A stretch of 64,000 nt of DNA from assembly GCF_014639315.1 (NCBI RefSeq), contig NZ_BMFY01000007.1, forward strand, positions 124,001 to 188,000, read 5' to 3'. Shown piece by piece: positions 24,675 to 41,820 of the stretch. The notes below the pieces were generated by a model. That model was not told the DNA's origin and ran no database searches. It worked only from the letters and a program-made list of their open reading frames with translations. Source of the DNA: Sediminivirga luteola. Its GTDB lineage: Bacteria > Actinomycetota > Actinomycetes > Actinomycetales > Brevibacteriaceae. Position numbers and translations under genes: made by a program. Position 1 is the stretch's first letter; every line of letters begins with the position of its first letter.

Positions 24675-26137
24675 CGTGCGCCTCCCTCCGTATGCTCGCC
24701 TGTCTCGTCCCCTGCATTCTCCTCCGTCGTGACATCGCGCCTGGGCAGGCAGCGGATGCCCACATAGGCGCAGTCACGGCCATCGACCTCCGTGAACGCG
24801 ACCGAAGCCCAGGGGCTGAGATCGTCGGCCCGAGTCACGAAGTGCGCGGGAGCGCCGGCCGGCAGCAGCTCCAGGGTGTCCGGCTCGGCGTCCCCGGCGA
24901 GGACTCCGGCCTTGAGGCGCGCCTCCAGAGTGCCCTGCTCGGACTTCCGCACCTCCAGCGAGGTGCTGGCATCGGCATAGGTGCCCAGCAGGCTCTCGTC
25001 GAGGACCGCGTCCTCAGCCGGGCCCGCAGGAGCCGCCGTGCTCGGGGGCGCGGTCCCGGCGAAGACCTCCGCGAAGGCTCCATAGACCTCGGGCGCCGCG
25101 GCCGGGGCGACGCCGCCGTTGCAGAACACCACGAACACCACGCCGTCCTCCGGCAGCACCTGGAACCACGCGTTGTTGCCGATCGTCGTACCGCCGTGCC
25201 AGTACACCCGATGACCGTTCCAGTCATCGAGCATCCAGCCCAGGCCCCACTGCGGGGCCATGGTGGCGGCCGCGGGATCGAGGGTGACCTGCGGGGTGGT
25301 CATCAGCTCCACGGACTCCGCGCTCAGCAGGCGCGTTCCGCCGGGACCGGCCCCGCCGCGCAGGAACGCTCCGCCGAAGTCCAGCAGATCGTCGACGCTG
25401 CTGGTGATCAGGCCGGCAGGGCCCATCGAACGAGTGATGAGCGCGGTGGGCGCGGGCAGCCAGTCGCGCTGGCCGGGCTGGCGCACATGCCCGTACTGGA
25501 AGCGATGGCCCATCACCTCCTCGGGCAGGGTGAAGAAGCGGTCGAGGTCCAGACGCTGGCTGATGCGCGCTCGCAGGGACTCGTCCCAGGTGCGGCCGTC
25601 GAGCACTTCGATGATGCGCCCGGCGAGCACGAAGCCGGAGTTGCAGTAGGACCAGCCGGTACTGGGAGCGAACAGCGACTCCGCGGACTTCAGCGTTGCC
25701 ACGTATTTCTCCAGGCAGTCGTCGCCGCGGCCGGTGTCGGTGAACAGATCGCCGTCGATGCCCGAGGTGTGGGTGACGAGGTGCCTGACCGTGATCGTGC
25801 GGGCATCGACGGAACCGAGCTCCAGATCCTGGAGGATGTCGGTCACCGGGGTGTCGAGGTCGAGCTTCCCCTCCTCCCGCAGCTGCAGGATCATCGTCGT
25901 GGTGACCACCTTGGTGATCGAACCCACCTGGCACAGCGTGCCGGGCGTGCTGAGCACCCCGGTGCGGGTGTTGCTGACACCGGTCGCGGCCGTGAAGCGC
26001 TGCTCCGCGCCGGTCACGGGGTCGATGCGCAGGACGCCGGCCACGATGCCGGGAACATGGTGACGCCGGGCGATCTCGGCGAGGAGGTTCTCCCAGGGGG
26101 CGGGGTCGAATGCGAGGGGACTGAGGTTCTCAGGCAT
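24671..26137 (-). CDS. Class C beta-lactamase-fold serine hydrolase (D-aminopeptidase/esterase-like)
   Basis: Protein of 488 residues. A beta-lactamase-fold domain at about 15-370 has S73-I-T-K76, Y164-C-N166 and HGGTTIGNN, i.e. SxxK, YxN and HGG triads intact. A C-terminal domain (about 385-460) of the type found in D-aminopeptidases follows. No signal peptide is present, so it acts in the cytoplasm. Family members hydrolyse D-amino-acid amides or peptides, or esters. Coupling to a D-aminoacylase and a peptide-binding lipoprotein gene favours a role in breaking D-residue peptides after import. Confidence 0.9.
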   Translation of the reverse strand: MPENLSPLAFDPAPWENLLAEIARRHHVPGIVAGVLRIDPVTGAEQRFTAATGVSNTRTGVLSTPGTLCQVGSITKVVTTTMILQLREEGKLDLDTPVTDILQDLELGSVDARTITVRHLVTHTSGIDGDLFTDTGRGDDCLEKYVATLKSAESLFAPSTGWSYCNSGFVLAGRIIEVLDGRTWDESLRARISQRLDLDRFFTLPEEVMGHRFQYGHVRQPGQRDWLPAPTALITRSMGPAGLITSSVDDLLDFGGAFLRGGAGPGGTRLLSAESVELMTTPQVTLDPAAATMAPQWGLGWMLDDWNGHRVYWHGGTTIGNNAWFQVLPEDGVVFVVFCNGGVAPAAAPEVYGAFAEVFAGTAPPSTAAPAGPAEDAVLDESLLGTYADASTSLEVRKSEQGTLEARLKAGVLAGDAEPDTLELLPAGAPAHFVTRADDLSPWASVAFTEVDGRDCAYVGIRCLPRRDVTTEENAGDETGEHTEGGAR

Positions 26138-26153
26138 GGATTCTCCGTTTCTC

Positions 26154-26203
26154 CGGAACCTGCGTCCGTAGGAGCCCTGGAGCTCCTACGGGCGCTGGTT
26201 CCG
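26154..26203 (-). terminator. Long hairpin after the binding-protein gene
   Basis: A 10-bp perfect stem CCGTAGGAGC (26166-26175) with its complement at 26182-26191 is enclosed by an outer 7-bp stem CGGAACC/GGTTCCG (26154-26160 and 26197-26203). It sits in the 83-bp gap just after the lipoprotein gene and before the next gene of the same operon. Hairpins in this place usually stabilise the binding-protein message or partly terminate it. Confidence 0.55.
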
Positions 26204-26220
26204 AGCGTTCGATGGGCTGC

Positions 26221-27828
26221 TCAGTCCTCCACGAGGATGAGCCCGGTGAACATCGTCCCGTTGGGCGTGATCATGGCGTCGAGTCCCTGACCGTAGGTGA
26301 TGTCGGGCCGCATCGCGAAGGGCACGTAGTCGGCGGCGGCGTACATCGCAGACTCCGCCTGCTCCCAGCTGCCGCAGGCCTCGGCCCCGGTGAGACTGCT
26401 GGATTCGGCGACGATCTCATCGAAGTCAGGATTGGACACCCCTGCATAGTTGTTGCCCTGCGGGGGCGTCGGACCGGAGACGAAGGACGCGAGCACATTG
26501 GGCACCGAGTAGTTCGAGGCCAGCCAGATGACATCCAGCTCCGAGGAAGCCCCCTCGGTCGTGACGCGCTCGAGGAAAGCGTTCGCGTCCGTGCCGTGGT
26601 GGTTGACGCCCACCCCGATCGCCGCCCACTGCTCAGCCATCAGCTCCGCGGCCGCAGAGTTCTCCGGCCAGCGAGTGTTCCAGGCGAACTCCAGGACGAG
26701 TTCCTCGCCGTCCTTGGCCCGGATGCCGTCGGAACCCTGCACCCAGCCGGCCTCGTCGAGCATCGCCTCGGCATCGGCCACGTCCGTGGCAGGCAGGTTC
26801 GGAGTCGCGGCATCGTACTGGCAGATCTGCGGATCGAGCACCGCCAGGCGCTGAGCGCGTTCGCCCTTGCCGGCCGTCTGCACCTGCATGAGAGAGTCGA
26901 GGTCGAGCGCCTTGGTCAGGGCGACGCGCACGTCCTCATCCGCGGTGGGCTGACCCTCGGCCTGGCTGTAGGCGAAGCCGCCGGTCACCAGCCTGCTCTC
27001 GATCAGGGGATCGACCGAGGCCGCAACCCGATCCTCGTCCGGACCCTGCACCGCGGCCATGTTCAGCTCGCCGGACAGCAGCAGGTTCGCCCGGGTACTG
27101 GGATTCTCGATGATCCGGATCTGGACGTTCTTCGGCACGCCCTCGGTCGAGCCGTCCGGGCCGCCCTCGGGAGCCCAGGCGTAGTCGTCCCGGCGCTCCA
27201 GCGTGTAGTGGTCGCCGGGGACCGCCTCGGTCATCTGGTAGAGACCGGTGCCGTTGGTCGTCGAGGCGACACTGTCCGGATCGTCGAGTGCGCCCTGGCA
27301 GTAGATCGGATGGATGCCCAGCTGCGGCAGCAGGAAGGAATTGGGATTCTCCGTCGTGAGGGTGACGGTGCGGGCCGCCTCATCGTGCTCGACCTGTGCA
27401 TCGGCGGGAACCACCAGGCCGACGAAGGTCGAGCCGTTGTCCGGATCGAGGATCCACCGGTAGTTGTTCGCCACCGTCTCCGCGGTCATCTCCGTGCCGT
27501 CGGAGCACATCGCCCCCTCACGGATGGTGAACTGCAACGAGGTGGGGGTCTCCTCCCAGTCCTCGGCCAGCCAGCCCTGCGCCTCACCGTTCTGGTCGAA
27601 ATAGACGGGGGACTCATAGGCCCAGGGGTAGACGTAGCTGAGCGTGGCGCTGGAGTTGACGTGGCGGAAGAGGTTGCCGGGGTCCTCGTTGATGGCATAG
27701 CTGAGCGTGCCGTCGATCACCGGCTCACCGCTGCTCTCGGAGCTTCCCGCGCCGGAGCCGGAGCCACAGGCGGAGAGAGTGAGCGCGCCGGCGGCCACCA
27801 GCGCAGCAATGGAGCGTTTCGTCATCAT
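26221..27828 (-). CDS. Peptide ABC transporter substrate-binding lipoprotein (SBP_bac_5)
   Basis: Protein of 535 residues with a lipoprotein signal, MMTKRSIAALVAAGALTLSA then C21, followed by a flexible Gly/Ser linker. The SBP_bac_5 fold follows, with the family pattern DGTLSYAINEDP, YPWAYESPVYFD and, near the middle, NGTGLYQMTEAVPGDHYTLERRDDY. It would sit on the outer face of the membrane and deliver oligopeptides or similar ligands. Its permease and ATPase partners are not adjacent. The matching Dpp/Opp set lies 5-10 kb away at 32991-36708 without its own binding protein, so the two probably work together. Confidence 0.92.
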   Translation of the reverse strand: MMTKRSIAALVAAGALTLSACGSGSGAGSSESSGEPVIDGTLSYAINEDPGNLFRHVNSSATLSYVYPWAYESPVYFDQNGEAQGWLAEDWEETPTSLQFTIREGAMCSDGTEMTAETVANNYRWILDPDNGSTFVGLVVPADAQVEHDEAARTVTLTTENPNSFLLPQLGIHPIYCQGALDDPDSVASTTNGTGLYQMTEAVPGDHYTLERRDDYAWAPEGGPDGSTEGVPKNVQIRIIENPSTRANLLLSGELNMAAVQGPDEDRVAASVDPLIESRLVTGGFAYSQAEGQPTADEDVRVALTKALDLDSLMQVQTAGKGERAQRLAVLDPQICQYDAATPNLPATDVADAEAMLDEAGWVQGSDGIRAKDGEELVLEFAWNTRWPENSAAAELMAEQWAAIGVGVNHHGTDANAFLERVTTEGASSELDVIWLASNYSVPNVLASFVSGPTPPQGNNYAGVSNPDFDEIVAESSSLTGAEACGSWEQAESAMYAAADYVPFAMRPDITYGQGLDAMITPNGTMFTGLILVED

Positions 27829-27836
27829 GGTTCCCC

Positions 27837-27870
27837 TTGAGATTGTGCTCAGGTTGAGATTGTCCTCAGG
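27837..27870. repeat. Tandem 17-mer in the gap before the binding-protein gene
   Basis: TTGAGATTGTGCTCAGG (27837-27853) is followed immediately by TTGAGATTGTCCTCAGG (27854-27870), one mismatch apart. The second copy includes the stop codon of the beta-lactamase-like gene at 27866-27868. The first lies just upstream of the ribosome site of the binding-protein gene, so the duplication lengthens the spacer between two coupled genes. Confidence 0.7.
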
Positions 27871-28750
27871 CGGAGCGGAGGTCTTCTACTGCCGCGGCAG
27901 CGAGTGCGCCGATGGCACGGTCGAAATCGGGCGCATTGCCCGCGGGGGTGGGCAGCCGCAGGAACACGGCCACCGCATAGCGGCCGGAGTCCGGGTACTC
28001 CACGACCCCCACCTCATTGCGGACATAAGGCAGCGTTCCCGTCTTCCCGCTGGTCTTCACCGCATCGCCGGGGAACCCCGAGCGCAGACGGTGCGACCAC
28101 ACCTGCAGGCCCAGGATCCTCCGGGCCTCGGCGCAGGCCTCGGGGGCCAGTCCCTCGTCCTTCCACAGCATGCCCAGCAGCCGGGTGGTTTCGCGTGGAG
28201 TGGTCCGGTTGGTGCGCGCGGGATCCAGCGCCCGCGTGCGCAGCAGGGCGCCGGCGTCGTCGAAATAGCTGTCCGGCGCCTCAAGGCCCTGGGCGGCTAG
28301 ATCCTCGTCGATCGTCGCGAACAGATGGGCGCAGTCGCCCTCGAGCACGGTGCCGGGCAGCCCCAGCTCCGCCATCCGGGCGTTGATGCGGTCCCAGCCC
28401 ACGATGTCCATGGCGACATCGGTCGCACGGTTGTCGGAAACGCTCATCATCGACAGGCACAGGTCGCGGAAGGAGAGCGAGACGGGATCGGAGAACACGG
28501 AGATCCCGGTGGGCCCGGCCACCGCGAAGTCTTCCGCGCCGAGCTCCACCCGGCGGCGAGCGTCGAGTTCGCCTGCAGCGATCTGAGCGCAGGCCTCCAC
28601 CAGCACCGGGATCTTGAAGACGCTCGCGGCGACCACCGCGGAGTCCTCCCGCAGGCCCGTCTCCACGCCCCGGTCCAGATCGATGGCATGCAGATATGCC
28701 GTGAGTCCCAGGCTGGACTCGAGCTCTGCGGCCGTGTTCTGCAGTCCCAT
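27866..28750 (-). CDS. Class A beta-lactamase-like serine hydrolase, cytoplasmic
   Basis: Protein of 294 residues with the class A penicillin-interacting motifs: S43-V-F-K46, S105-D-N107, and KTSGKTG near residue 235. An ExxLN omega-loop signature, needed for efficient class A beta-lactamase deacylation, is not evident. No signal peptide is present (MGLQNTAAELESSLGLTAYL...). This places it in the PF13354 group, whose non-lactamase members are amidases or esterases. It leads the leftward operon with the peptide-binding lipoprotein, the class C-like hydrolase and the D-aminoacylase. A D-peptide or D-amino acid amide hydrolase is a reasonable guess; resistance to beta-lactams is less likely for a cytoplasmic protein. 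Confidence 0.85.
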   Translation of the reverse strand: MGLQNTAAELESSLGLTAYLHAIDLDRGVETGLREDSAVVAASVFKIPVLVEACAQIAAGELDARRRVELGAEDFAVAGPTGISVFSDPVSLSFRDLCLSMMSVSDNRATDVAMDIVGWDRINARMAELGLPGTVLEGDCAHLFATIDEDLAAQGLEAPDSYFDDAGALLRTRALDPARTNRTTPRETTRLLGMLWKDEGLAPEACAEARRILGLQVWSHRLRSGFPGDAVKTSGKTGTLPYVRNEVGVVEYPDSGRYAVAVFLRLPTPAGNAPDFDRAIGALAAAAVEDLRSA

Positions 28751-28877
28751 GCCAACATCATCTGAGATGTGGCGCAGAACACGCTTCAGAGTTCAGGACA
28801 AATTCGCCCCCTCCCCTTCGTCCGCGCTGACAGTCGCCTGCCGGAGACCGGGAGGGGAACAGCCCGGGCAGCACCGT

Positions 28878-28897
28878 CCTTGTCGTACCGGACAAGG
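28878..28897. promoter_or_regulatory. Dyad in the divergent promoter region of the D-amino-acid island
   Basis: CCTTGTC-GTACCG-GACAAGG is a 7-bp perfect dyad at 28878-28897 between the leftward hydrolase operon and the rightward acyltransferase operon. Its core TGTCGTACCG (28881-28890) recurs exactly at 38749-38758 upstream of the M20 deacylase gene. This makes it a candidate operator for the island's PucR regulator, by inference. Confidence 0.45.
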
Positions 28898-28987
28898 CGG
28901 GCGCCGAACACTGCACCAATTCCACGATGCGGTCAGGCCGGGTGACAGGACATCCTGATGACGATGACGATTGAAAGGAACACCACA

Positions 28988-29851
28988 GTGGGCGCGTCCG
29001 CAGATGTACTCTCCCCGCATCACCTGGCACGGGATGCCCGGTTACTGGCCCAGCACGCCTGCGCCGGTGCCGGACTCGTGATCCGCGAGGCCCACGACGC
29101 AGCGGTGTGTGACGACATCGCCGAGGTGCTGAGCGCCGTGTGGATGAAGCCCGACCACCCGATCATCGATCCTGCCCTGCTGATCGCGATGACGCACGCG
29201 GGCAATCTCAGCTTCCTGGCCGTTCGGGATGGCCGGCCCGTGGGCGCGGCGGTGGGGTTCTGTGGTCCTCCCGGGATGCCCTTCCACTCGCACATCGTGG
29301 GTCTGCTCCCGGAGTCCACCGGCCGCGGCCTCGGGCAGGCCGTCAAGCTGTATCAGCGGGCCTGGTGCCTGGAACGCGGCATCACTGTGATGACCTGGAC
29401 CTTCGACCCTCTGGTGGGGCGCAATGCCTACTTCAACATCCAGCGTCTGGGAGCCCGCCCGGCCGAGTACCTGCCGGAGTTCTACGGCGCGATGAACGAC
29501 TCGATCAACACCGGTCAGCTCTCCGATCGCATGTTCATGCGCTGGGAGCTCACCTCCGCGCCTCCCGCTCTGGGTGCGATACCCGCGGCGCGGGGCGCGG
29601 AAGGGGCACACGCCGCGGTCGCGGACGTCGGCGGCCGCCCCTCCGGGTACCGTGCTCCGGAGAACACCGATGCGGCCGTGACCCTGGCGGTCCCCCGGGA
29701 CATCGAATACCTGCGGCGCGAGGACCCGGAGCTGGCGCACGAGTGGCGACTGCACACCCGGGCCGCCTTCGCCGAGCTGTTCGCCCAGGGCTGGACCGTC
29801 ACCGGATTCACCCGCTCCAGTCAGTACGTCCTCCATCATCAGGGCTCTTGA
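28988..29851 (+). CDS. COG3375-type GNAT acyltransferase (candidate D-amino acid N-succinyltransferase)
   Basis: Protein of 287 residues with the GNAT core MTHAGNLSFLAVRDGRPVGAAVGFCG and PESTGRGLGQAVKLYQRAWCLERGI, then MTWTFDPLVGRNAYFNIQRLG. This last is the hallmark of the COG3375 group that associates with o-succinylbenzoate-synthase-like racemases. I prefer GTG at 28988, with AAAGGA 8 bases upstream; an in-frame ATG at 28958 lacks a ribosome site. In the known route for irreversible D-to-L conversion, this enzyme type uses succinyl-CoA to acylate D-amino acids, which the racemase encoded 31 bases downstream then epimerises. The C-terminal motif GWTVTGF...YVL reappears in a remnant at 40 kb. 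Confidence 0.85.
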   Translation: MGASADVLSPHHLARDARLLAQHACAGAGLVIREAHDAAVCDDIAEVLSAVWMKPDHPIIDPALLIAMTHAGNLSFLAVRDGRPVGAAVGFCGPPGMPFHSHIVGLLPESTGRGLGQAVKLYQRAWCLERGITVMTWTFDPLVGRNAYFNIQRLGARPAEYLPEFYGAMNDSINTGQLSDRMFMRWELTSAPPALGAIPAARGAEGAHAAVADVGGRPSGYRAPENTDAAVTLAVPRDIEYLRREDPELAHEWRLHTRAAFAELFAQGWTVTGFTRSSQYVLHHQGS

Positions 29852-29882
29852 GAAGAGGGGCCTTACGAAAGGGTAGAAGAAC

Positions 29883-31007
29883 ATGAAGCTCCTGGCAGCA
29901 CGTCTCCACCACCTCGAACTGCCACTGGTCTCGCCGTTCACCACCTCCTTCATGACGCAGACGCACAAGCGGTGCTTCCTGGTCGAGATGGAGCTGGAGA
30001 CCACGGACGGCACCGTGGTCACCGGCTGGGGCGAGAACGTCGCCCTCGACCGCCCCTTCTACTCCCCGGAGCACCTCGACGGCTCCGCCGAGGTGGTGGC
30101 CCGCTGGCTGGTGCCGGAGCTGGTGGCGGCCGGAGAGATCACCGCGGAGACCGTGCACCATCACCTCCGCCGGGTGATCGGCAATCCGATGGCGAAGGCC
30201 TCGGTGGAGATGGCTGTGCTCGACGCCCAGCTCCGGTCCGAGGGCAAGTCCTTCGCCTCCTATCTGGGCGCGGTCTCGAGCGCTGTGCCATCCGGCGTGT
30301 CCGTGGGCATCCAGGACTCGGTGGCCCAGACGGTGCGCGTGGTGGGAGGCTACATCGACGAGGGCTATGCGCGGATCAAGCTGAAGATCCAGCCGGGCGC
30401 GGACATCGAGCACGTCGCCGCGGTGCGCCGGGAGTTCGGCGATGAGCTGCTGTTCCAGGTGGACGCCAATGCGGCCTACACCCTGGTCGACGCCGCGCAC
30501 CTGCGCCGCCTGGACGAGTACGGCCTGCTGCTGATCGAGCAGCCGCTGGGCGAAGCGGATCTGCGTCAGCACGCAGAGCTGGCCAAGCAGATGTCCACCC
30601 CGATCTGCCTGGACGAGTCGATCGACTCCGCCGAGACCGCCGCCGACGCGATCTCACTGGGCTCCGCCGCGGTGATCAACATCAAGCCCGGCCGGGTGGG
30701 CGGATACCTCGAAGCCCGCCGGATCCACGACATCGCCCGCGCCCACGGCATCGCGGTGTGGTGCGGCGGCATGCTGGAAACGGGAATCGGCCGTGCAGCG
30801 AACGCGGCACTGGCAGCACTGCCCGGCTTCACCCTGCCCGGGGACATCTCCGGCTCGGACAGGTTCTACGCCCTGGACATCACCACCGAGCCCATCCGCA
30901 TGCACGACGGCGTGGTGGACGTGCCAGCCGGCCCGGGCTTCGGCATCGAGGTGGACCCGGACCGGGTCGCCGAGTTCCGCACCGCTCTCGTGGAGATCCA
31001 GCTGTGA
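29883..31007 (+). CDS. Enolase-superfamily N-succinylamino acid racemase / o-succinylbenzoate synthase-like
   Basis: Protein of 374 residues with the full catalytic set of the muconate-lactonising subgroup: K166-L-K168, metal ligands D194, E219 and D244, and K268 in INIKPGRVGG. The capping domain at 1-110 has SPFTTSFMTQTHK, typical of the NSAR/OSBS family. No other menaquinone genes are nearby. Context (COG3375 acyltransferase upstream, D-aminoacylase and M20 deacylase in the island) favours racemisation of N-succinyl-D-amino acids over menaquinone synthesis. Its TGA overlaps the GTG of the S9 peptidase gene (GTGA), so both are translated together. Many family members do both reactions. Confidence 0.88.
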   Translation: MKLLAARLHHLELPLVSPFTTSFMTQTHKRCFLVEMELETTDGTVVTGWGENVALDRPFYSPEHLDGSAEVVARWLVPELVAAGEITAETVHHHLRRVIGNPMAKASVEMAVLDAQLRSEGKSFASYLGAVSSAVPSGVSVGIQDSVAQTVRVVGGYIDEGYARIKLKIQPGADIEHVAAVRREFGDELLFQVDANAAYTLVDAAHLRRLDEYGLLLIEQPLGEADLRQHAELAKQMSTPICLDESIDSAETAADAISLGSAAVINIKPGRVGGYLEARRIHDIARAHGIAVWCGGMLETGIGRAANAALAALPGFTLPGDISGSDRFYALDITTEPIRMHDGVVDVPAGPGFGIEVDPDRVAEFRTALVEIQL

Positions 31008-33001
31008 GCCGCGCACCCGTCCTCGACGACCTCACCCGGATCGTCGATCCCCAGACCCCGGCGCTGTTCCCCGGGGGCTCGGCGCTCGTCTACGCCGCCG
31101 TCCACCACCCGGCAGAGGGCCCGGCCGTGTCCGAGCTGCGCGTGCTGAGCCTCCCGGCGTCCGAGCTCGCGGACGCGGCCCAGGAAGGTACGGAGCGCGG
31201 GCCGGAGCAGGCACGCACCCTCACCTCCGGCGACCTCGACTCGAACCCCGCAGTCTCCCCCGACGGCTCTACCGTGGTGTTCACCCGCAAGGCTGAGGGC
31301 AGGCCCGCCCTGTTCTCCATCCCCGCCGAGGGCGGGGAGCCGGTGGCACTCACCTCCGGGCTCACGGTTGCCGGGATGCCGGTGTTCTCCCCGGACGGCG
31401 AGCACATCGCCTTCACCGCGCTGGCCGACGACAGCGCCGCGGATCCCACGCCTCCCCTGGTGATCGACGGCGAGCCCGCGCACAAGGTCGACGGCCTCGG
31501 CTGGGTGGGCACCGCCCGCCTGCAGGTGTTCGTGATGCCCGCCGCGGGCGGCGAGGCCGTGCGGCTGACCGAGTCCGGCAACTGCACCGCCCCCGCCTGG
31601 TCTCCGGACGGCACCACTCTTGCCTTCGCGCACACGGATCACGATGAGCAGGGGGTGCCCTTCACCCGCAGGGTGGGACTGGTGGATCTCGCCGCACCCG
31701 GTACCTCCGTGCGCTTCCCCTTCTCCCAGACCGGCATGTTCTCCCAGACAGGCATGGGCGGGCCCCTGCTGTGGTCCCCGGACGGCGCCTGGCTGGTGGC
31801 GATCGGGGAGGCCCGCACCCCGGTGGGGATCAACCGGCTGCTGCGGCTGGACCCGGACAGCGGCGATATCACCCCGCTCACCGCCGGGCTCGACCGCAAT
31901 GTGATGGGCGGCGGGCCCGGCTACCCCGGCGGCGCGCCGGCCTGGGGTGCGGACGGACGGATCTGGTTCTGCGTGCGCGAGGGCGGCCAGACCGCGCTGC
32001 GCTCCCTGGATCCCGCCGCGGAGTCCGGTGACATCCGCAGCCATGAGCTGGGCGATGGCGCTGTGATCAGTGGTCTGTCCATGGCCGGCGGCACCGCCGT
32101 GGTGCGGCTCTCGGATCCGGACCTGCAAGGCGAGATCTTCTCTCTCGACACCGCCAGCGGCGCTGTCACCCAGCTCACCCGGCACTGGGAGGAGGAGCTT
32201 CCCGAGGTGTCTTTCCTGTCGGCACGCCCGGTGAGTTTCACGATCTCCGACGGCACCCGGGTGCACGGCTGGCTGCTGCGCGACCCCGCCACCCAGGGCC
32301 CCGCACCCACGCTGCTCGACATCCACGGCGGGCCGCACAACGCCTGGACGGGAGTGGCCGACGCCGCCCACCTGTATCAGCAGGTGCTGGCGGCCCGCGG
32401 CTGGAATGTGCTCACCCTCAATCCCCGCGCCTCCGACGGCTACGGCGAGGAGTTCTTCACCGCGGCGGTGGGAGCCTGGGGCGAGGCCGATGAGCAGGAC
32501 TTCCTCGAGCCCCTCGACACCCTGGCGGACCAGGGGCTGGTGGATCCGCAGAGGGTGGCGGTGACCGGCTACAGCTACGGCGGTTTCATGACCTGCTGGC
32601 TCAGCAGCCGCCACCCGGAGCGCTTCGCGGCGGCCGTGCCCGGAGGCCTGGTCTCCGAGCTCCACACCCTCGCGGCCTCCAGCGATCTGGGGCGTTACCT
32701 GCGCGATATCGAGACCGGCGCGGGCAATGCCGAACGCCTGTCGCCGGCCAGCTACGTGGACGCGGTCACCGCCCCCACCCTGGTGCTCCACGGCCAGGAG
32801 GATCAACGCTGCCCGCTGGCCCAGGGCGAGCTCTGGTACTCACGTCTGCAGGAGAACGGCGTGCCCTCGCGCATGGTCGTCTACCCCGGGGGCTCTCATC
32901 TGTTCATTCTCAACGGCCCGGTCTCTCACCGGGTCGATTACAACCAGCGGATCATCGACTGGGTGGTGGAGCACACACAGGCTTCGAGCCTCAAAGACTA
33001 G
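31004..33001 (+). CDS. S9-family prolyl-oligopeptidase-type serine peptidase
   Basis: Protein of 665 residues. A beta-propeller of WD/TolB-like blades spans about 20-400 (SPDGSTVVFTR, SPDGEHIAFTA, SPDGTTLAFAH, SPDGAWLVAIG). The alpha/beta-hydrolase catalytic domain follows, with S524 in GYSYGG, D600 in HGQEDQR and H632 in GGSHLF. No signal peptide, so it cuts imported peptides in the cytosol. Start is the GTG that overlaps the racemase stop; much longer upstream frames are shadow. The 3' end overlaps the convergent ATPase gene by 11 bases. It would supply dipeptides or amino acids, including D-residues, to the rest of the pathway. Confidence 0.9.
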   Translation: MSRAPVLDDLTRIVDPQTPALFPGGSALVYAAVHHPAEGPAVSELRVLSLPASELADAAQEGTERGPEQARTLTSGDLDSNPAVSPDGSTVVFTRKAEGRPALFSIPAEGGEPVALTSGLTVAGMPVFSPDGEHIAFTALADDSAADPTPPLVIDGEPAHKVDGLGWVGTARLQVFVMPAAGGEAVRLTESGNCTAPAWSPDGTTLAFAHTDHDEQGVPFTRRVGLVDLAAPGTSVRFPFSQTGMFSQTGMGGPLLWSPDGAWLVAIGEARTPVGINRLLRLDPDSGDITPLTAGLDRNVMGGGPGYPGGAPAWGADGRIWFCVREGGQTALRSLDPAAESGDIRSHELGDGAVISGLSMAGGTAVVRLSDPDLQGEIFSLDTASGAVTQLTRHWEEELPEVSFLSARPVSFTISDGTRVHGWLLRDPATQGPAPTLLDIHGGPHNAWTGVADAAHLYQQVLAARGWNVLTLNPRASDGYGEEFFTAAVGAWGEADEQDFLEPLDTLADQGLVDPQRVAVTGYSYGGFMTCWLSSRHPERFAAAVPGGLVSELHTLAASSDLGRYLRDIETGAGNAERLSPASYVDAVTAPTLVLHGQEDQRCPLAQGELWYSRLQENGVPSRMVVYPGGSHLFILNGPVSHRVDYNQRIIDWVVEHTQASSLKD

Positions 33002-33770
33002 GCACGGCGGAGATCAACTCGCGGGTGTAGTCGTGCTGCGGGTTCTCCATCACGTCCAGGGTCTCGCCCACCTCCACCAGACGGCCCGCGCGCATCACGG
33101 CCACCCGGTCGCTGACGATCCGCACGACAGCCAGATTGTGGCTGATGAACAGCACTGAGAAGCCCAGTTCCTGCTGCAGGTCCCGCAAGAGATTGAGCAC
33201 CGAGCCCTGCACGGACACGTCCAGCGCCGAGGTGATCTCGTCAGCGAGGATCACCGACGGCCGGGCCGCGATCGCACGCGCCACCGCAATCCGCTGCCGC
33301 TGGCCGCCGGACAGCTGGGCGGGCATGCGCTGGGCGTATTCCGCCGGCAGCGCAACCGAATCCAGCAACCCGGAGATCTCGTCTCGGCGGGCCCGCGGGG
33401 ACGGCACGCTCGTGCCCTCCCTGCGGTGCGCGGCGACAAGCGCCTCATCAAGCGACTGGCCGATGGTGCGGCGCGGATCGAAACAGGACTGCGGGTCCTG
33501 GAAGACCATCTGCACCCGGCGGCGCTCCCGTGCCACGGGTCCACGGGCGCGGGAAATCTCCGTGTCCCCCAGCAGGATCCTGCCGGAAGACGGCTCGGTG
33601 AGACCCACCGCCGCGCGGGCCAGCGTGGACTTCCCGGACCCGGATTCACCCACCAGACCCAGAATCTCTCCCGGCTCCAGGCGGAGATCGACTGAGTCGA
33701 CGGCGGTGAATGCCGCGGCCCCGTGACCATAGATCACAGAGACGGACTCGAAGGATAACTGCGGATTCAT
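32991..33770 (-). CDS. Oligopeptide ABC transporter ATP-binding protein (DppF/OppF type)
   Basis: ATPase of 259 residues with Walker A GESGSGKST, Q-loop VFQDPQSCFDPRRT, signature LSGGQRQRIAVARA and Walker B VILADEITSALDVS. It ends with the DYTRELISAVPSL tail of the DppF/OppF group. It is the last gene of the leftward Dpp operon, its start overlapping the fused permease-ATPase stop by 4 bases. It works with that protein and DppB to import peptides bound by the lipoprotein encoded at 26221-27828. Confidence 0.93.
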   Translation of the reverse strand: MNPQLSFESVSVIYGHGAAAFTAVDSVDLRLEPGEILGLVGESGSGKSTLARAAVGLTEPSSGRILLGDTEISRARGPVARERRRVQMVFQDPQSCFDPRRTIGQSLDEALVAAHRREGTSVPSPRARRDEISGLLDSVALPAEYAQRMPAQLSGGQRQRIAVARAIAARPSVILADEITSALDVSVQGSVLNLLRDLQQELGFSVLFISHNLAVVRIVSDRVAVMRAGRLVEVGETLDVMENPQHDYTRELISAVPSL

Positions 33771-35689
33771 CGCTTCTCCTCCTGGACCAGCGGATCGGAC
33801 GTTCTTTCCACGTCTCCATCCAGTCGTTCGGCATCGCCACGCATGGCGGCATCAGCGTCGCCGCGCACCACCTCGACTCCGGCGGCCCTGCCCGCAGCGC
33901 AACCATCGCCGCCGCCGGAGAAGTCCGCCTCATCCGGAATGGAGGCCATGGGCTCTCCTCGCGGAGTGGTCATGGTCGGGACGGTGTCCATCAGCGCGCG
34001 GGTGTAGGCGTGCGCCGCCCGCCCGGCACGCAGGTCTTCAGAGCTGATGTCCTCGACCAGCCTGCCCCGGTACATCACCAGGACGCGGGTGCACAGTGAG
34101 GTGACGACCGCGATGTCGTGCGAGACGAACATGATGGCGGTTCCGTCTTCCTCATTGATTCGCCTGAGCAGGGTGAGGATCTCCGCCTGGACGGTGACAT
34201 CGAGCGCGGTAGTCGGTTCATCGGCGAGAATCAGCGAGGGTTTGCCCATCAACCCGGCGGCGATCATCGCGCGCTGGCGCATGCCTCCGGAATACTCGTG
34301 AGGATACTGGCCGTAGCGGCGCTCCGCGTCCGGGATGCGCACGGCTTCAAGCCGTTCGATCGCTGCCTCGCGTGCCTCCCTGCGGTTCATCCCCAGGTGC
34401 AGCAGACCTGCCTCGGCCACCTGCGAGCCCACGTGCAGGGCGGGATTGAGCGAGGACATGGGGTCCTGGAACACCATCGCCATACGCTTCCCGAAGTGAT
34501 GGTCGAGGCTCGCAGGGTGGCCGCCTGCCCGCAGTGTGAGGTCCTCCCCGTCGAAACGCGCAGCGTCAGCGGACACATGCAGCGAGGGGTCCAGCAGGCC
34601 CGCCATGGACATCAGGGTGAGGCTCTTGCCGGAACCGGATTCCCCCACCACGCCCACGATCTCCCCTCGGGCTACATCGAAGGACACCCCGTCCACCAGG
34701 GTGCGTACATCATCCCTGCCGTGGGGCGCGCAGACGCGGAGGTTGCGCACGGCCAGCACCGAGTCCTCGGCGAAGGGCGCCGGGACTCCCGCCGGCTCAG
34801 TCTCGTTTTCCGCTGTCTGCGCCCGAAGCCTCCGCAGCACCCGTGAAGACAGGCTGCGATGGGTGTCCGGGGTGAGCGCCTTGCCCAGGATCTCGCCGAG
34901 CAGCACGAAGGTGAGCCCGGCAAGAATGATCGCGATACCCGGCACCAGGGCCGCTGCGGGGGTCACGAAGATCCGGCTGACGCCCTCGTTGAGCATGCGA
35001 CCCCAGTCGTACTGGGGAACCTGGATGCCCAGGCCCAGGAAGGACAGGCCGGCGAAGGACACCAGCGCCCCGCCAGCAGTGATCGCGGCATTCACCAGCA
35101 GCGGGTCCCGCACATTGGGCAGCACGTGCCGCAGCACGATCTGCCATGTGGGCACTCCCAGCACGCGGGCGGCGGAGATGTAGTCGCGGCCCCAGACGGA
35201 GGCGGCGAGGTTGTGGGTGAGGCGCCCGTAGTTGGGCAGCATGGCGATGGCGATCGCCAGCGTCGCCGCCGTTCCGCTCTGTCCCAGGATGACGGAGAAG
35301 GCGATCGCCAGAAGCAGGCCGGGGAAGGCCACCCCGATGTTGATGCCGGCCACGATCCAGCGCCCGGCCCTGCCGCCAAGGATGAGCGGCAGCAGGCCCA
35401 CGAGGACGCCGGAAAGCACACCGGCCACGGTCGCCATGAGAGCCATGGATACGGAGAGCTGAGTGGCAGCCAACGTGCGTAGCAGGATGTCGCGTCCGCT
35501 GCCGTCGGTGCCGAAGAGATGCTCGTCGCTGGGTGGCTGGGATATCTGGGTGGTGTCCGTCACCGCAGCCCTCTCACCCCAGATCGCTGGAGCGAAGAGG
35601 GTGAGGAACAGCAACGTGCCGCAGGCGAGAAGCGCGAGAACGCCCAGGGGCGTCCGCAAGGCGGCGAGGAGACGACGTGCCGTGGTCAT
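33767..35689 (-). CDS. Fused DppC-like permease and DppD-like ATPase
   Basis: Single chain of 640 residues. The permease half at about 1-285 has five to six helices, the family motif DGSGRDILLRTLAATQLS and the EAA-loop region DYISAARVLGVPTWQIVLRHVLPN. The ATPase half at about 310-570 has GESGSGKS, FQDPMSSLNPALHVG, EYSGGMRQRAMIA and LILADEPTTALDVT. A tail of about 70 acidic residues follows. Fusion of the DppC and DppD roles occurs repeatedly in actinobacterial peptide importers. The gene overlaps its neighbours by 4 bases on both sides. Confidence 0.93.
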   Translation of the reverse strand: MTTARRLLAALRTPLGVLALLACGTLLFLTLFAPAIWGERAAVTDTTQISQPPSDEHLFGTDGSGRDILLRTLAATQLSVSMALMATVAGVLSGVLVGLLPLILGGRAGRWIVAGINIGVAFPGLLLAIAFSVILGQSGTAATLAIAIAMLPNYGRLTHNLAASVWGRDYISAARVLGVPTWQIVLRHVLPNVRDPLLVNAAITAGGALVSFAGLSFLGLGIQVPQYDWGRMLNEGVSRIFVTPAAALVPGIAIILAGLTFVLLGEILGKALTPDTHRSLSSRVLRRLRAQTAENETEPAGVPAPFAEDSVLAVRNLRVCAPHGRDDVRTLVDGVSFDVARGEIVGVVGESGSGKSLTLMSMAGLLDPSLHVSADAARFDGEDLTLRAGGHPASLDHHFGKRMAMVFQDPMSSLNPALHVGSQVAEAGLLHLGMNRREAREAAIERLEAVRIPDAERRYGQYPHEYSGGMRQRAMIAAGLMGKPSLILADEPTTALDVTVQAEILTLLRRINEEDGTAIMFVSHDIAVVTSLCTRVLVMYRGRLVEDISSEDLRAGRAAHAYTRALMDTVPTMTTPRGEPMASIPDEADFSGGGDGCAAGRAAGVEVVRGDADAAMRGDAERLDGDVERTSDPLVQEEKR

Positions 35690-36708
35690 GATGTGTCCAA
35701 TGCGGTCCGCGGATCCAGCAGGATCAGGACGATGTCGATGATGAGGTTGATGAGCAGCACCAGGGCGCCGTAGAAGATGATGATCCCTTGCACCAGCGGG
35801 TAATCCTGGTTCTGGATCGACTCGACGATGACGCCACCCAGGCCGGGCCAGGCGAAGATGTTCTCCACCAGCACGGTGCCGGCGATCATGCTTCCGAGCA
35901 GCAGGCCAGAGATGGTGAGTGTCGAGGTCAGTAGATTGGGGAGCACGTGCTTGCCGTAGAGACGTACCGCGGGCATGCGCTTGGCGCGTGCCGTGCGGAC
36001 GTAGTCCTGCTGGAGGACGGTGAGGGTCTCGGCGCGGACGATCCTGGTGAGCGATGCCGTCGGGCCCAGCGCCAGGGCGATCACCGGGAGCAGGTAGGAC
36101 TCGAGGCCGGAGCGTCCGGCCACCGGCAGTATGTCCATATTCACGGCGAACAGGTAGACGAGGATGACGCCCGCGAGGAACTCGGGGATCACGGCGACGA
36201 TCGCGGAGACCGACGTGAAACCCACCTCGACGCCATGCCGGCGGCCACCGCGGGTGATCGCGCCGAAGAACAGGCCCAGGCAGACCGCGAGCACGAGGGC
36301 GATGGCCACGGCGGCGAGGGCGAGTTCGAGTGTGGCTGGTGCCCGGCTGAGGATCACATCGAGGACAGGCATTCGCGAGGTGATCGATTCGCCCATGTCT
36401 CCGGTGAACAGCCCGACCCAGAAGGTGAGGTACTGCACGATCACCGGCTTGTCCAAGCCCAGCTGGATTCGGCGAGCTTCGATTACCTCGGGCGGAGCGT
36501 TCTCACCGGCGGATATGCGCGCAGGGTCACCCGGGATCAGCTGGACAAGCAGAAACGAGACCGTCACCAGTACGAACAGTGAAATCACGAAGTACATGCC
36601 GCGGCGCAGCAGATAGGAGACCCAGGGATTCTGCGCGCGGAACGCCGTGCGCCCCGGTGCGGCAGCCGGAGTTCCACCCGCCGCGGGGCTTACTGGAGTG
36701 ACTGACAA
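35686..36708 (-). CDS. Peptide ABC transporter permease (DppB type)
   Basis: Permease of 340 residues with six helices and an N-terminal segment YLLRRGMYFVISLFVLVTVSF. Family motifs are QLIPGDPA and, in the cytoplasmic loop, DYVRTARAKRMPAVRLYGKHVLPN. First gene of the importer operon; the promoter should lie in the 137-bp gap up to the PucR gene stop at 36846, or the genes may be read through from pucR. A 30-residue Pro/Ala/Gly-rich leader precedes the first helix, so a later start is possible. Confidence 0.92.
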   Translation of the reverse strand: MSVTPVSPAAGGTPAAAPGRTAFRAQNPWVSYLLRRGMYFVISLFVLVTVSFLLVQLIPGDPARISAGENAPPEVIEARRIQLGLDKPVIVQYLTFWVGLFTGDMGESITSRMPVLDVILSRAPATLELALAAVAIALVLAVCLGLFFGAITRGGRRHGVEVGFTSVSAIVAVIPEFLAGVILVYLFAVNMDILPVAGRSGLESYLLPVIALALGPTASLTRIVRAETLTVLQQDYVRTARAKRMPAVRLYGKHVLPNLLTSTLTISGLLLGSMIAGTVLVENIFAWPGLGGVIVESIQNQDYPLVQGIIIFYGALVLLINLIIDIVLILLDPRTALDTS

Positions 36709-36845
36709 ACGGCCCCCTCATACCTCATCGGTCTGTCGCGGTCGTTTCAGTATCGTCAGCCGGAGAGTTCCTTGACATCGTGTGATCTGCCAGGCCTCTG
36801 ATGCCCGCGTTGTACAGATGACCAAGAGGTTCGCGCGCCGTTCCC

Positions 36846-38537
36846 TCATTCCTGCGACGCAGGAGCACTCAGTTCCGGCGCGATCCGCAGCAGCAGCTGG
36901 GCGGCGAACCGCGCCTCGGGATCCCCAAGGTCCATGTCCCCGATCTCCGCCAGCCGTCGCAGGCGGTAGCGCAGCGTGTTGGGATGCACGTGCAGCATGT
37001 CCGCCGCCGCGGACACGTCGCCCATGCAGTCCAGCCAGGAGCGCAGGGTCTCGATGAACTGCGTGTCGTGCACCTGATCGTGCGCCCACAACCGGGCGAC
37101 CGGGCCGGTGACCGTCGTCTTGCCCGCGGCGACGCGGTCGCGTAACTCCAGCAGGAGCGCCTCGACGTGCACCCGCGAGAACAAGGCCACGGAGGACTCG
37201 CTGTCACCCTGCTCCATCCGCACCCGCAGCGCCCGGCGGGCTCCTTCACGGGCGGTGAGCAGCTCCCGGGAACTGCTCACGATCGGCCCGATGCCCATCG
37301 CTAGCGGGGTGCGCCGCCCCACCCGGGCGAGGATGTCATCGGCCAGGCGCAACGCGTGGGCTTCCCCGGCTTCCATCGACTGCACGGGGAGCACACCGAA
37401 GATCGTGTCCCCCAGCAGCGCGACACAGGCAGCCGGATGTACAGCCGCCAGATGGACGACCACCGCATCGGCCACCCGCTGACGTTCGATCGCGGCATCG
37501 GCCTTCCTCGTCCTCAGCCCCAGGACTCCGGCGGCGAACACAGCGATAGGCGAATCGTCGATCCCCAAGCGCTCCAGGGCATAGTCGGCACCGTCTCCGC
37601 CTTCGAGCGCAGTGCTCAGCAGATCCGCTCGTAGCCGGCGATCCACATTCGCCCCAGCGCGCAGGCGCAGCAGGTGGAGCGCCACGACCTTGGACACATC
37701 GCGGAACACCGCCATCTGCTCGGGGCTGAAGGTCTCCGGCACCGCTGCCCAGATGGAACCCAGGATCTCGCCGCCCGCGCGCACGGCAATGGCGACACGC
37801 CCTTTGATCTCGGTGTCGTCCGAGGTGAGCTGGATGTAAACGGGCTCCTCCGAGGAATACAGTCGCTCGAAGAAGCCGGACTCCATCAGCATGCGGAGAT
37901 ACGGCTCCGGCACCTGACGTTCCAGAATGGTCTCGATCCGCGGGGAATCGGCCTCGTCCTGCCTGCTGGAGAAGGCGAGTACCCGCGAATTGCGGTCTTC
38001 GATGGTGACCGGTGCGTCCAGTAGGGAAGAGATCGCATTCGCCACGGCGAAAAGGTCACCGCTGGGCAGACCGTCAATGGTCTCGCTCTCGCTGGTGATC
38101 GCGGGCTCGGCCAGCAGCGAGTAGATCATGGAGCTGAGCTGTGTCCAGGAGGCTCCTCGGGTGAGCCCCAGCAAGGCGACCCCGTGGACGCCTGCGAGTT
38201 CCGCCGTCGCCGCCTCGAGTGCCACGGGTTCACGCAGGATCAGAGCGCTCGCTCCGCCTAGCGCCATCTCTCTGAGGACGCCGACGAGGTCCGGGCCCTC
38301 GCTCAGGCCTACGCCCAGCACGACCAGCCCGGGTGAGACCAGCATGTCGTCGAGAGGGTCGTACACGCTCACGCCGGTCACCCGGCGAGTGGGCTCCGGC
38401 ACTTCCGCCAGGGGCGCGAGAAAGGTGGAACCCAGGTCCTCAAGCATCCGCTCCAGAGTGAGGAGCGGCCGCTGCGGAGGATCCGTGCGCGGACCGGCGG
38501 TACCGTCGTCGTGATGAGGAGAGGACACGGGAAACAT
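36846..38537 (-). CDS. PucR-family transcriptional regulator
   Basis: Protein of 563 residues. The N-terminal purine-catabolism PucR-like domain covers about 25-180, a central GAF-like/GGDEF-like region about 190-440, and the C-terminal helix-turn-helix (HTH_30) the last 60 residues, with VSAAADMLHVHPNTLRYRLRRLAEI. Regulators of this type usually activate a neighbouring catabolic operon in response to a pathway metabolite. It lies between the peptide importer and the divergent M20 deacylase gene, and is the only regulator in the 23-40 kb island. Start ATG at 38537 is weakly supported; the GTG four codons later is an alternative. Confidence 0.92.
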   Translation of the reverse strand: MFPVSSPHHDDGTAGPRTDPPQRPLLTLERMLEDLGSTFLAPLAEVPEPTRRVTGVSVYDPLDDMLVSPGLVVLGVGLSEGPDLVGVLREMALGGASALILREPVALEAATAELAGVHGVALLGLTRGASWTQLSSMIYSLLAEPAITSESETIDGLPSGDLFAVANAISSLLDAPVTIEDRNSRVLAFSSRQDEADSPRIETILERQVPEPYLRMLMESGFFERLYSSEEPVYIQLTSDDTEIKGRVAIAVRAGGEILGSIWAAVPETFSPEQMAVFRDVSKVVALHLLRLRAGANVDRRLRADLLSTALEGGDGADYALERLGIDDSPIAVFAAGVLGLRTRKADAAIERQRVADAVVVHLAAVHPAACVALLGDTIFGVLPVQSMEAGEAHALRLADDILARVGRRTPLAMGIGPIVSSSRELLTAREGARRALRVRMEQGDSESSVALFSRVHVEALLLELRDRVAAGKTTVTGPVARLWAHDQVHDTQFIETLRSWLDCMGDVSAAADMLHVHPNTLRYRLRRLAEIGDMDLGDPEARFAAQLLLRIAPELSAPASQE

Positions 38538-38822: not shown

Positions 38823-39971
38823 ATGAACCGGTCATCCATTCAGCTCCCGCCAGGACTTCTGCCCGCCGCTGAGGCGAGGCTGGAGCAGATGATCGCCGAT
38901 ATCCGCACCCTGGTGGAGGTCGAGACGCCCTCCTCCGATCTGGAGGCGGTCGCGGCCGGCGCGGCAGAGGTCGCGCGGCTGATGCGGGAGCGACTGGGCG
39001 CCGGCCCGGAGACCATCGTGATCGACGGGGTGACGCACCTGCGGCTGCGGTTCGGCGACGGGCCAGCGCGGGTGGTCCTGGTCAACCACCAGGACACGGT
39101 CTGGCCGCACGGCACGCTGAACCGGCTCCCGTTCACCGCCGAGGACGGCGTGCTGCGCGGCCCCGGGGTCTTCGATATGCTCACCGGCCTGGTCATGTCC
39201 GTGCACGCGGCGGCACTCGTCGCGCAGAGCGGCCGCCCCCTGGAAGGACTGAGCATCCTGGTCACCGGTGATGAGGAAGTCGGCTCGATCACCTCACGGG
39301 ATTTGATCCTCACGGAAGCTGCCGAGGCCCGCGCCGTCTACGTGATGGAGGCCGCCGCCGATGGCGCCCTGAAAGTGGCACGCAAGGGCGTGGCGATGTA
39401 CCAGGTGACCGTGCACGGCCGTTCCTCCCATGCGGGACTCGACCCGGAGAAGGGCATCAACGCCGGCGTCGGCCTGGGACTGCTGCTGCCGCAGATCGCC
39501 GCTCTGTCGGACCCGCAGGCCGGTACCACCGTGACACCCACGGTGCTCTCCGGCGGGACCACCACCAATACGGTGCCGGCCGAGGCGCGGGTGCAGGTGG
39601 ATTCGCGTGCCGCCTCCCGGGCGGAACAGGAGCGGGTGGACGCGGCGATCAGGGCGCTGCCGGAGCCGATCCCCGGCGCGACGGTGACTGTGACCGGCGG
39701 GATCAACCGGCCGGTGATGCCCCGCGCGGCCGCCGAAGAACTCCTGGCCGAGGCCAGGCGGGTCGCTGCGGAGCTGGGCCTGGCAGAGCCGGAGGCGGTT
39801 GAGGTCGGCGGTGCTTCCGACGGGAACTTCACCGGCGGCGCCGGCATCCCGACCCTGGACGGCCTGGGCGCCGCGGGAGCCGGCGCGCACGCGGACCACG
39901 AGCACGCGATCATCGCCGAGATCGCTCCCCGGACGGCTCTTCTGGCCGGACTCATCAGCGCCCGGCTGTAA
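38823..39971 (+). CDS. M20-family metallopeptidase/deacylase (candidate N-succinyl-L-amino acid hydrolase)
   Basis: Protein of 382 residues of the carboxypeptidase G2/ArgE/DapE type. The metal site has H89 and D91 in VNHQDTVWP, bridging D118 in GPGVFDM, general base E151 and E152 in TGDEEVG, and the last histidine in HADHEHAI. The dimerisation domain begins KGVAMYQVTVHGRSSHAGL. Start ATG at 38823 has AAAGG upstream. M20 enzymes complete the D-to-L conversion by removing succinate from N-succinyl-L-amino acids, which fits this island. Glutamate carboxypeptidase is the main alternative. Divergent from the PucR gene. Confidence 0.87.
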   Translation: MNRSSIQLPPGLLPAAEARLEQMIADIRTLVEVETPSSDLEAVAAGAAEVARLMRERLGAGPETIVIDGVTHLRLRFGDGPARVVLVNHQDTVWPHGTLNRLPFTAEDGVLRGPGVFDMLTGLVMSVHAAALVAQSGRPLEGLSILVTGDEEVGSITSRDLILTEAAEARAVYVMEAAADGALKVARKGVAMYQVTVHGRSSHAGLDPEKGINAGVGLGLLLPQIAALSDPQAGTTVTPTVLSGGTTTNTVPAEARVQVDSRAASRAEQERVDAAIRALPEPIPGATVTVTGGINRPVMPRAAAEELLAEARRVAAELGLAEPEAVEVGGASDGNFTGGAGIPTLDGLGAAGAGAHADHEHAIIAEIAPRTALLAGLISARL

Positions 39972-39979
39972 GCCCGCCC

Positions 39980-40159
39980 TCGCGCGGTCCGGCCGCCTGG
40001 CGGGTGGCGCTCCGGGAGACGATGCACCCGCTCATGACCGCCGGCTGGACCGTCGCGGGCATCGACGCAGAGGGCACCTATGTGCTTGTGCCCGGCGATG
40101 GCAGAAAGCGAACATCCGAGCACAGCGGAGTGAATGAGCACAGCCCGGGCACCGGGTGA
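39980..40159 (+). pseudogene. C-terminal remnant of a second COG3375 acyltransferase
   Basis: Directly after the M20 gene, the frame through 39998 reads AAWRVALRETMHPLM then TAGWTVAGIDAEGTYVLVPG and ends in a TGA at 40157-40159. The intact acyltransferase at 28988-29851 ends HEWRLHTRAAFAELFAQGW, then TVTGFTRSSQYVLHHQGS. WR, the R before the helix, GWTV-G and YVL align with equal spacing. There is no start codon or N-terminal part, so only the tail of a lost gene remains. The rest of the gap to 40542 holds an AT-rich promoter-like stretch near 40190-40220 and no gene that I can support. Confidence 0.6.
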
Positions 40160-40542
40160 AAGAACGTTTCGCGGAATTCTTCGCGCGTTCACTAGAATCC
40201 CGCCGAAAATTATTTACCCGTAAAGACTCTCTCAACCCCGTGCGGGCGCGTTGGTGAGCGGCAGCGGATGCGCACGGGAACGATCAGAAGGATATCCGCC
40301 CAGGTCACCTGCGCCATCGAGGCGAAGATGCCATAGGAGACAGGGCTCCTCATCCGGACGCCTTCACCTGCCCCGGTGAGACCGCACGCGGATTCAGGCG
40401 CCGGTCAGTTTTCCCGGTTTTCCTGAGAATTCCCTTGACCGGAGAATCGCCCGGGCAATAGCCTTCGAATAGTCGGCGGACACCAGTGCCCACCGGCTCC
40501 ACCGGCTATCCACTGCTTGACCTTTGAGAGGACACCGTTCGC

Positions 40543-41114
40543 ATGAGCACGCCTGAAACCACTCCCACGCGCCGCCCTCGCGCTCGCACCGCCCTCGCGC
40601 TCGCACCGTCCTCGCGGCGGCGGGCGTCGTCGGCCTGGCCACCGCCCTGACCCTGACCACCGCCCAGTGGCAGGACGACGCGACAATCTCCGGTGACGTC
40701 ACCACCGGTACCTTTGAAATCACGGTCGATCCGAGCGACCTCGGCTTCGACGATGACTTCGGTCCCGGCGACACCCAGAGCGGCACCTACACCCTGTTGA
40801 ACGAGTCCAGCGTCGACGCCTACATCACCCTCGACATCTCCGGCTTCACCGCTACCGATGTCTGGGACCTCGAGGTGACCGCCGATGGCGAGCCTGTCTT
40901 CGAGGGCGACCCCGCCGGCGCCGGCACGACCGACCTCGCTCTCAGCACCGACTCCGTGTTCGGCCCCAACGAGTCCGCAAGCATCGGCATCTCGCTGACC
41001 CTGGTGGACCCGGAGACGGGCAGCGCACCCGAGGGCGTCACCGACACGGCGACCTTCACCTTCAACGGCACCAGCGAGATCCCCACGGACGACGGCCCGG
41101 GCCCCGTCGAGTAA
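40543..41114 (+). pseudogene. SipW-dependent (alternate signal) secreted protein, frameshifted by a 17-bp duplication
   Basis: The ATG at 40543 follows a GAGAGGA ribosome site and encodes MSTPETTPTRRPRART, but the frame then derails. CCCTCGCGCTCGCACCG occurs twice in tandem (40575-40591 and 40592-40608). Removing one copy restores MSTPETTPTRRPRART-VLAAAGVVGLATALTLTTAQ-WQDDATISGDVTTGTFEITV and an open frame to the stop at 41114. The restored protein has about 184 residues, a TasA/camelysin-like alternate signal and an acidic, immunoglobulin-like body. As written, no ATG, GTG or TTG exists in the second frame before 40797. Lies directly upstream of a SipW-type signal peptidase. Confidence 0.85.
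40575..40608. repeat. Exact 17-bp tandem duplication inside a signal-peptide region
   Basis: Two adjacent copies of CCCTCGCGCTCGCACCG. Seventeen is not a multiple of three, so gain or loss of one copy switches the downstream coding sequence in or out of frame. Such direct repeats can expand or contract by strand slippage during replication. Confidence 0.9.
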
Positions 41115-41241: not shown

Positions 41242-41820
41242 ATGATGACCACGCCTGAGCACACCACCGCGTCCGGCACGCGGCGCCGTCCGCAGCGCCG
41301 GCGTTCTGCGCTCGGCACGGCGTGGTCGGTGCTGGTGACCGTGGTCGCGGTGGTGACGATCGGCCTCACGATCGCCGCCTACACCGGGCTGCTGGGCGTC
41401 CGCGCCATCACGTCCAGCTCGATGCAGCCCACGCTGAACGCCGGCGATATGATCATCAGCCGCACGGTCCCCGCAGCCGAAGCCCAGATCGGCGATATCG
41501 CCACGCTGCAGCATCCGGACGGTCATGTGGTGACACACCGCGTGCTCGCCAATGAGCCCGATCCGGAAGGCCCGGAAGGCACCGGCCGGCTCATCACGAT
41601 GCAGGGCGACGACAACGACGTCGCCGATCCGAGACCCTATCCCGCGACGGAGGTCGATGTGATGCTCATCCGGGTTCCCTACCTGGGCGGGGTCTTCCGG
41701 GCGGTGTCACAGCCGCCGGTCAGTTACATCGCCCTCGGATCGCTCGCCCTGCTCCTGGCCTCCGGGTTCATGCCGGCCCGCCGGCGCAGCACCGAAGCGC
41801 AGGAGCGTCCCACCTCATGA
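41242..41820 (+). CDS. SipW-type (ER-type) signal peptidase I
   Basis: Protein of 192 residues. An N-terminal membrane anchor lies at about 28-50. Nucleophile S60 is in ITSSSMQPTL, and the general base is H99 in HVVTHRV rather than the usual lysine, which marks the ER/SipW type. A C-terminal helix at about 160-178 follows. SipW-type enzymes cut the alternate signals of TasA-like proteins, and the preceding gene encodes exactly such a substrate. Two adjacent ATGs make the exact start uncertain by one codon. The stop overlaps the LPXTG-protein start (ATGA). Confidence 0.92.
   Translation: MMTTPEHTTASGTRRRPQRRRSALGTAWSVLVTVVAVVTIGLTIAAYTGLLGVRAITSSSMQPTLNAGDMIISRTVPAAEAQIGDIATLQHPDGHVVTHRVLANEPDPEGPEGTGRLITMQGDDNDVADPRPYPATEVDVMLIRVPYLGGVFRAVSQPPVSYIALGSLALLLASGFMPARRRSTEAQERPTS

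Follow-up and report, generated by a model that had tools for sequence, protein, structure and literature searches.

Immediately behind the intact M20 gene of Sediminivirga luteola lies a short protein-like reading, and the locus raises the question of whether this is the end of a lost acyltransferase gene and what it says about the role of the M20 enzyme. The reading begins 17 bp past the M20 stop (PAAWRVALRETMHPLMTAGWTVAGIDAEGTYVLV). Its frame is on the + strand, open from 39803 to 40156 and closed by a TGA at 40157-40159, and from 39998 on it reads WRVALRETMHPLMTAGWTVAGIDAEGTYVL. We refer to the whole 64,000-nucleotide stretch of DNA analyzed here as the window. The initial annotation had taken the reading as the C-terminal tail of a second acyltransferase, of a family that we take to be COG3375, a label of which no mention was found in the literature searched. 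N-succinylamino acid racemase (NSAR/OSBS) clusters convert D- to L-amino acids irreversibly. In the presumed pathway an acyltransferase N-acylates, probably N-succinylates, the D-amino acid, whose configuration is then inverted by the racemase, and the L-amino acid is released by the M20 enzyme.

Table 1 Features of the window that bear on the remnant and its neighbors.
Feature	Position	Strand	Basis or remark
Intact acyltransferase P0002, other lineage	28958..29851	+	Sole full-length relative found in the genome
Enolase-superfamily gene, N-succinylamino-acid-racemase/OSBS type	29883..31007	+	1sja; TIGR01928
PucR-type regulator, divergent from M20	36846..38537	-	Pfam HTH_30, E 1.9e-21
M20-family metallopeptidase/deacylase, intact, probable N-acyl-L-amino acid hydrolase	38823..39971	+	Pfam
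Interval from M20 stop to first homologous codon, with the putative deletion junction inside	39972..39988		17 bp; profile alignment starts at 39989
C-terminal remnant (34 codons) of M20-linked GNAT acyltransferase	39989..40090	+	Profile positions 245-278, 48.0 bits, E 5.9e-14
Continuation of the remnant frame (read-on) up to its TGA	40091..40159	+	Without clear counterpart among relatives

We built two profiles without the window sequence, one from 11 distinct Nesterenkonia acyltransferases (13 Nesterenkonia-type sequences, collapsed) and one from 49 other GNATs, and searched them against the 1190 six-frame stretches of the window, each of at least 20 residues. The Nesterenkonia profile matched the remnant with 48.0 bits (E 5.9e-14) and P0002 with 241.0 bits, and the next frame reached 5.2 bits. 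The profile of other GNATs matched the remnant with 27.8 bits (E 8.4e-8). When the window was resampled 20 times with a first-order Markov model, the maxima were 6.9 and 6.6 bits for the two profiles, respectively, and reversed frames gave 3.1 and 5.9 bits. By these scores the reading is homologous to the C-terminal tail of full-length family members, as had been proposed. The lack of an N-terminal part was also borne out: no N-terminal acyltransferase fragment was found in the six frames of the window, where P0002 was the only clear match besides the remnant.

The homologous part is confined to profile positions 245-278 and does not include the GNAT catalytic domain. In a relative of 319 residues, Acetyltransf_1 was matched (Pfam, just below the cut-off) at residues 90-163, and the retained part corresponds to residues 277-313. 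Because of this, nothing catalytic is left in the reading, which is a remnant and not a member gene of the acyltransferase family. The remnant by itself had no match in Pfam and a single match in NCBIfam (E 0.054); two full-length acyltransferases gave a sub-threshold Acetyltransf_1 match as their only Pfam match and none in NCBIfam. Over 39989-40090, the codon-usage score was positive in the remnant frame alone among the six frames, and the read-on was not coding-like. Counted from its W codon, the tail is 31-34 residues long in 10 of 13 intact tails and 38-44 in the other three, compared with 53 in the window frame. A few tblastn alignments extended into the read-on region (that of L070, and that of L063 beyond its own stop). 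Thus, of the annotated extent of 39980-40159, the part at 39989-40090 stood, and 3 codons at the start and 22 at the end were without clear counterpart. The remnant is a real, well-supported and ordinary pseudogene remnant.

The initial annotation had placed the motifs WR, R, GWTV-G, and YVL in register with intact P0002. This alignment was reproduced, with 12 of 30 residues identical, and the pairwise match alone was weak (tblastn E 1e-4 within the window, without composition correction, and 0.013 genome-wide). We then scored the remnant against 79 distinct relatives, collapsed from 88 acyltransferases. The 11 best were all of Nesterenkonia type, with scores of 107-137; the other 68 scored at most 93, and P0002 scored 62. 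The shortness of the remnant does not allow a separate tree. A tree of 61 proteins, built from P0002 and the 60 relatives with scores of 120 bits or more, separated P0002 from the group that includes the Nesterenkonia acyltransferases (branch 96/93); P0002 sits on a long branch whose exact placement is unsure. A full-length Nesterenkonia acyltransferase searched against the window's own genome found only P0002 and the remnant at E 0.01, and no other intact copy. On the basis of that search, two weak genome matches of the remnant, C6:106488 (E 0.026) and C9:115774 (E 0.1), were dropped as chance. The 11 best scores, together with this genome search, show that the remnant is not a copy of P0002 but comes from the end of another acyltransferase, distinct from it.

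We compared the M20 gene and its neighbors with those of relatives. The M20 gene is complete, with its TAA stop at 39971; its protein contains catalytic and dimerisation domains (Peptidase_M20, E 1.9e-22; M20_dimer, E 2.8e-18), and the alignment with the nearest relative reaches the last residue. It is 63-70% identical to the M20 proteins of 11 Nesterenkonia loci and groups with these 11 in a tree of 58 proteins (100/98), in which it forms a long branch; the tree comprised 57 distinct M20 proteins with coverage of at least 80% and that of the window. Of the 11 named Nesterenkonia loci, which were found via the acyltransferase, 10 have the acyltransferase to which the remnant corresponds directly after M20. 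Among the 33 top-ranked of 80 loci, M20 was matched in 28 and the enolase in 25 (one of these, in L072, at 27% identity on the opposite strand), and the M20 match ended at most 300 bp upstream of the acyltransferase match in 26. The other 47 loci are more distant and had no M20 match, with an enolase match in 43. In the eleventh named Nesterenkonia locus, L040/L063 (7434-12036 in L040, the metagenome-assembled genome (MAG) of Nesterenkonia sp. bin114), 2.5 kb separate M20 from the acyltransferase, and this space contains two genes, one the enolase and the other presumably alcohol-dehydrogenase-like. In the Nesterenkonia pairs, such as those of N. muleiensis (L068) and N. alkaliphila (L070), the acyltransferase tail lies in the same place after M20 and is 55-74% identical to the remnant over 31 codons, whereas the acyltransferase is long there (258-320 residues from match start to stop) and reduced to 34 codons in the window. 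Relatives of the PucR-type regulator were in several cases found at the same loci as M20, the acyltransferase, and the racemase. The synteny in relatives and the M20 tree support the proposal that the window M20 gene formerly had its own acyltransferase next door.

The distance from the M20 stop to the W codon is 707-788 bases in the 10 adjacent Nesterenkonia loci (for L065 and L071 the W position was taken from tail lengths, about 760 bases past the M20 stop) and 26 in the window. By this comparison about 680-760 bp are missing, the catalytic domain included. The deletion may have been larger than about 0.7 kb, since two genes separate M20 and the acyltransferase in L040/L063. We counted codon changes over 31 codons, excluding L067 because of a one-codon gap. 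Compared with 10 distinct Nesterenkonia tails, the remnant carried 9.0, 6.2, and 16.6 changes at codon positions 1, 2, and 3, most of them at the third; the corresponding values for these tails compared with one another were 9.4, 6.3, and 14.7. Identity at the amino-acid level was 66% between the remnant and Nesterenkonia and 62% within Nesterenkonia, or 65% and 64% when 12 rows were counted, with two identical pairs kept. Positions 1 and 2 thus changed no more in the remnant than in intact tails, over a count of codons that is small. The truncation looks recent, because in an old pseudogene these positions should show surplus changes. The 60 family genomes included no second genome of the window's genus that might show the locus before the event or date it.

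Short repeats around the junction were weighed as possible traces of the deletion, namely 12 nt at 39974-39985 found again at 40572 and 40589, and a 20-nt repeat (85%) at 38683 and 39978. These were set aside, because by our own estimate such short repeats are expected by chance in GC-rich DNA.

The genes for an acyltransferase, an NSAR-like enolase, and an M20 hydrolase lie within about 11 kb in the window, as in NSAR/OSBS pathway clusters. The racemase has the N-acylamino acid racemase 1sja as its best solved relative (E 4.5e-130) and matched TIGR01928 (o-succinylbenzoate synthase) with 304.1 bits, against a cut-off of 200.65. The window differs from these clusters in that one acyltransferase is truncated and the other lies 9 kb from M20. 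In addition, among solved structures the M20 protein is nearest to carboxypeptidase G2 (E 3.2e-34), and its match to succinyl-diaminopimelate desuccinylase is weaker (E 8.7e-14); the enzyme activities are predicted ones. The pathway assignment of M20 therefore comes from gene context and not from its own sequence. The recurring order of M20, acyltransferase, and racemase makes the role in the N-acyl D-amino acid pathway that had been suggested for M20 more likely; it supports this role and does not prove it. P0002, beside the racemase-like gene about 10 kb from the remnant, may do the job of the lost acyltransferase. By linking the M20 hydrolase to an acyltransferase partner, the remnant points to a predicted deacylase of a D-amino acid salvage pathway, and it suggests that such clusters are able to lose or exchange their acyltransferase. 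Its wider importance is small. This gene cluster is not described in the available text of two reviews of NSAR enzymes (PMC8142540, PMC7431475).

We also analyzed relatives from the window's own family, where an acyltransferase relative was found somewhere in 57 of 60 genomes, including that of the window. Nine loci of the family's main genus carry genes with 66-71% identity to the racemase gene; its identity to that of G003 is 69%, and to that of the Nesterenkonia MAG (G126) 44-45%. The nine main-genus loci (L041-L048 and L055) have M20 near an NSAR-like enolase and gave no acyltransferase match with P0002 as query; in four of the nine, a Nesterenkonia acyltransferase as query also found none. 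The four of these loci that have gene calls show a divergent gene beside M20 that we take to be glutamate-cysteine-ligase-like. The claim that the island has been rearranged was upheld modestly, by the local loss of about 0.7 kb and by genes with differing nearest relatives. That the island is composite and lost an acyltransferase it no longer needed is a reasonable interpretation, though not a proved one. We tentatively consider it possible, at somewhat less than even chances, that a Nesterenkonia-type M20-acyltransferase pair joined a resident acyltransferase-racemase pair from a different lineage and that the redundant newcomer acyltransferase was then deleted, a recent non-orthologous replacement.

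The island (23190-38537) also encodes an amidohydrolase, two beta-lactamase-fold enzymes, and an S9 peptidase, and genes that presumably encode a solute-binding protein and ABC transporter parts. These contents would fit the uptake and breakdown of D-amino-acid peptides. Several island genes are matched by the G003 locus L052.

Very probably, the window once carried a GNAT gene of the Nesterenkonia kind after M20, which lost about 0.7 kb. In the ancestor, the gene after M20 would have encoded a GNAT acyltransferase like the one that Nesterenkonia retains at this place. Its start and all of its catalytic domain would then have been lost in a deletion of about 0.7 kb, leaving the last 34 homologous codons without function, and the acylation step would now run through P0002, which is of another lineage and adjoins the racemase gene. 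Against it count the nine main-genus loci, where M20 has no acyltransferase match nearby, and the long branches of the window M20 and of P0002 in their trees. This explanation builds on the observed homology, position, and truncation of the remnant, the synteny in relatives, its distinct lineage, and the finding of no other intact copy; from these we infer the deletion as an event, its recent date, the replacement by P0002, and the substrates.

Other explanations would place the loss differently. The M20 gene may have been acquired by recombination with the downstream breakpoint inside the acyltransferase, so that part was lost at transfer and not later. M20 and the remnant are indeed nearest to Nesterenkonia while the racemase is closer to the main genus. 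However, the missing part lies between M20 and the remnant, so that a breakpoint at the end is insufficient and an internal loss is still required, which makes this unlikely. A partial duplication of P0002 by recombination within the island would agree with the shared protein family, the distance of about 10 kb, and the common strand, but it is very unlikely given the low identity to P0002, a score of 62 against 107-137 with Nesterenkonia, and the position of P0002 elsewhere in the tree. Misassembly at the junction may also account for the arrangement.

Two further explanations concern the nature of the tail itself. If it were still translated as a small peptide, from the GTG at 40004 or the ATG at 40022, and retained for function, this could explain its coding-like codon use and why the first two codon positions show no surplus of changes. 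The same pattern is expected after a recent truncation, though, and the comparison covers just 31 codons; the catalytic domain has been lost, and the frame has no start codon from 39803 to W, with GTG and ATG as in-frame codons only beyond it. We therefore regard a retained peptide as scarcely credible. Chance resemblance or conserved non-coding DNA might be considered for so short a stretch, which alone has no curated family match, but its chance of being correct is negligible: the profile E-value, against controls below 7 bits, rules it out together with the non-coding alternative raised at the outset, and in the 13 Nesterenkonia-type loci compared a long acyltransferase frame has this stretch as its coding C-terminal part.

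Past the remnant, about 450 bp had no blastn match to the fetched relative loci. With tblastx there were scattered weak matches in several places and frames (best E 0.002 among the matches listed), which we treated as noise. A camelysin-like gene lies at 40542-41114 on the + strand, with a Pfam M73 match just below the cut-off and with its start region and mature part in different frames. At 40568-40616 it contains 2.9 copies of a 17-bp unit, and it adjoins a signal-peptidase-like gene at 41242-41820.
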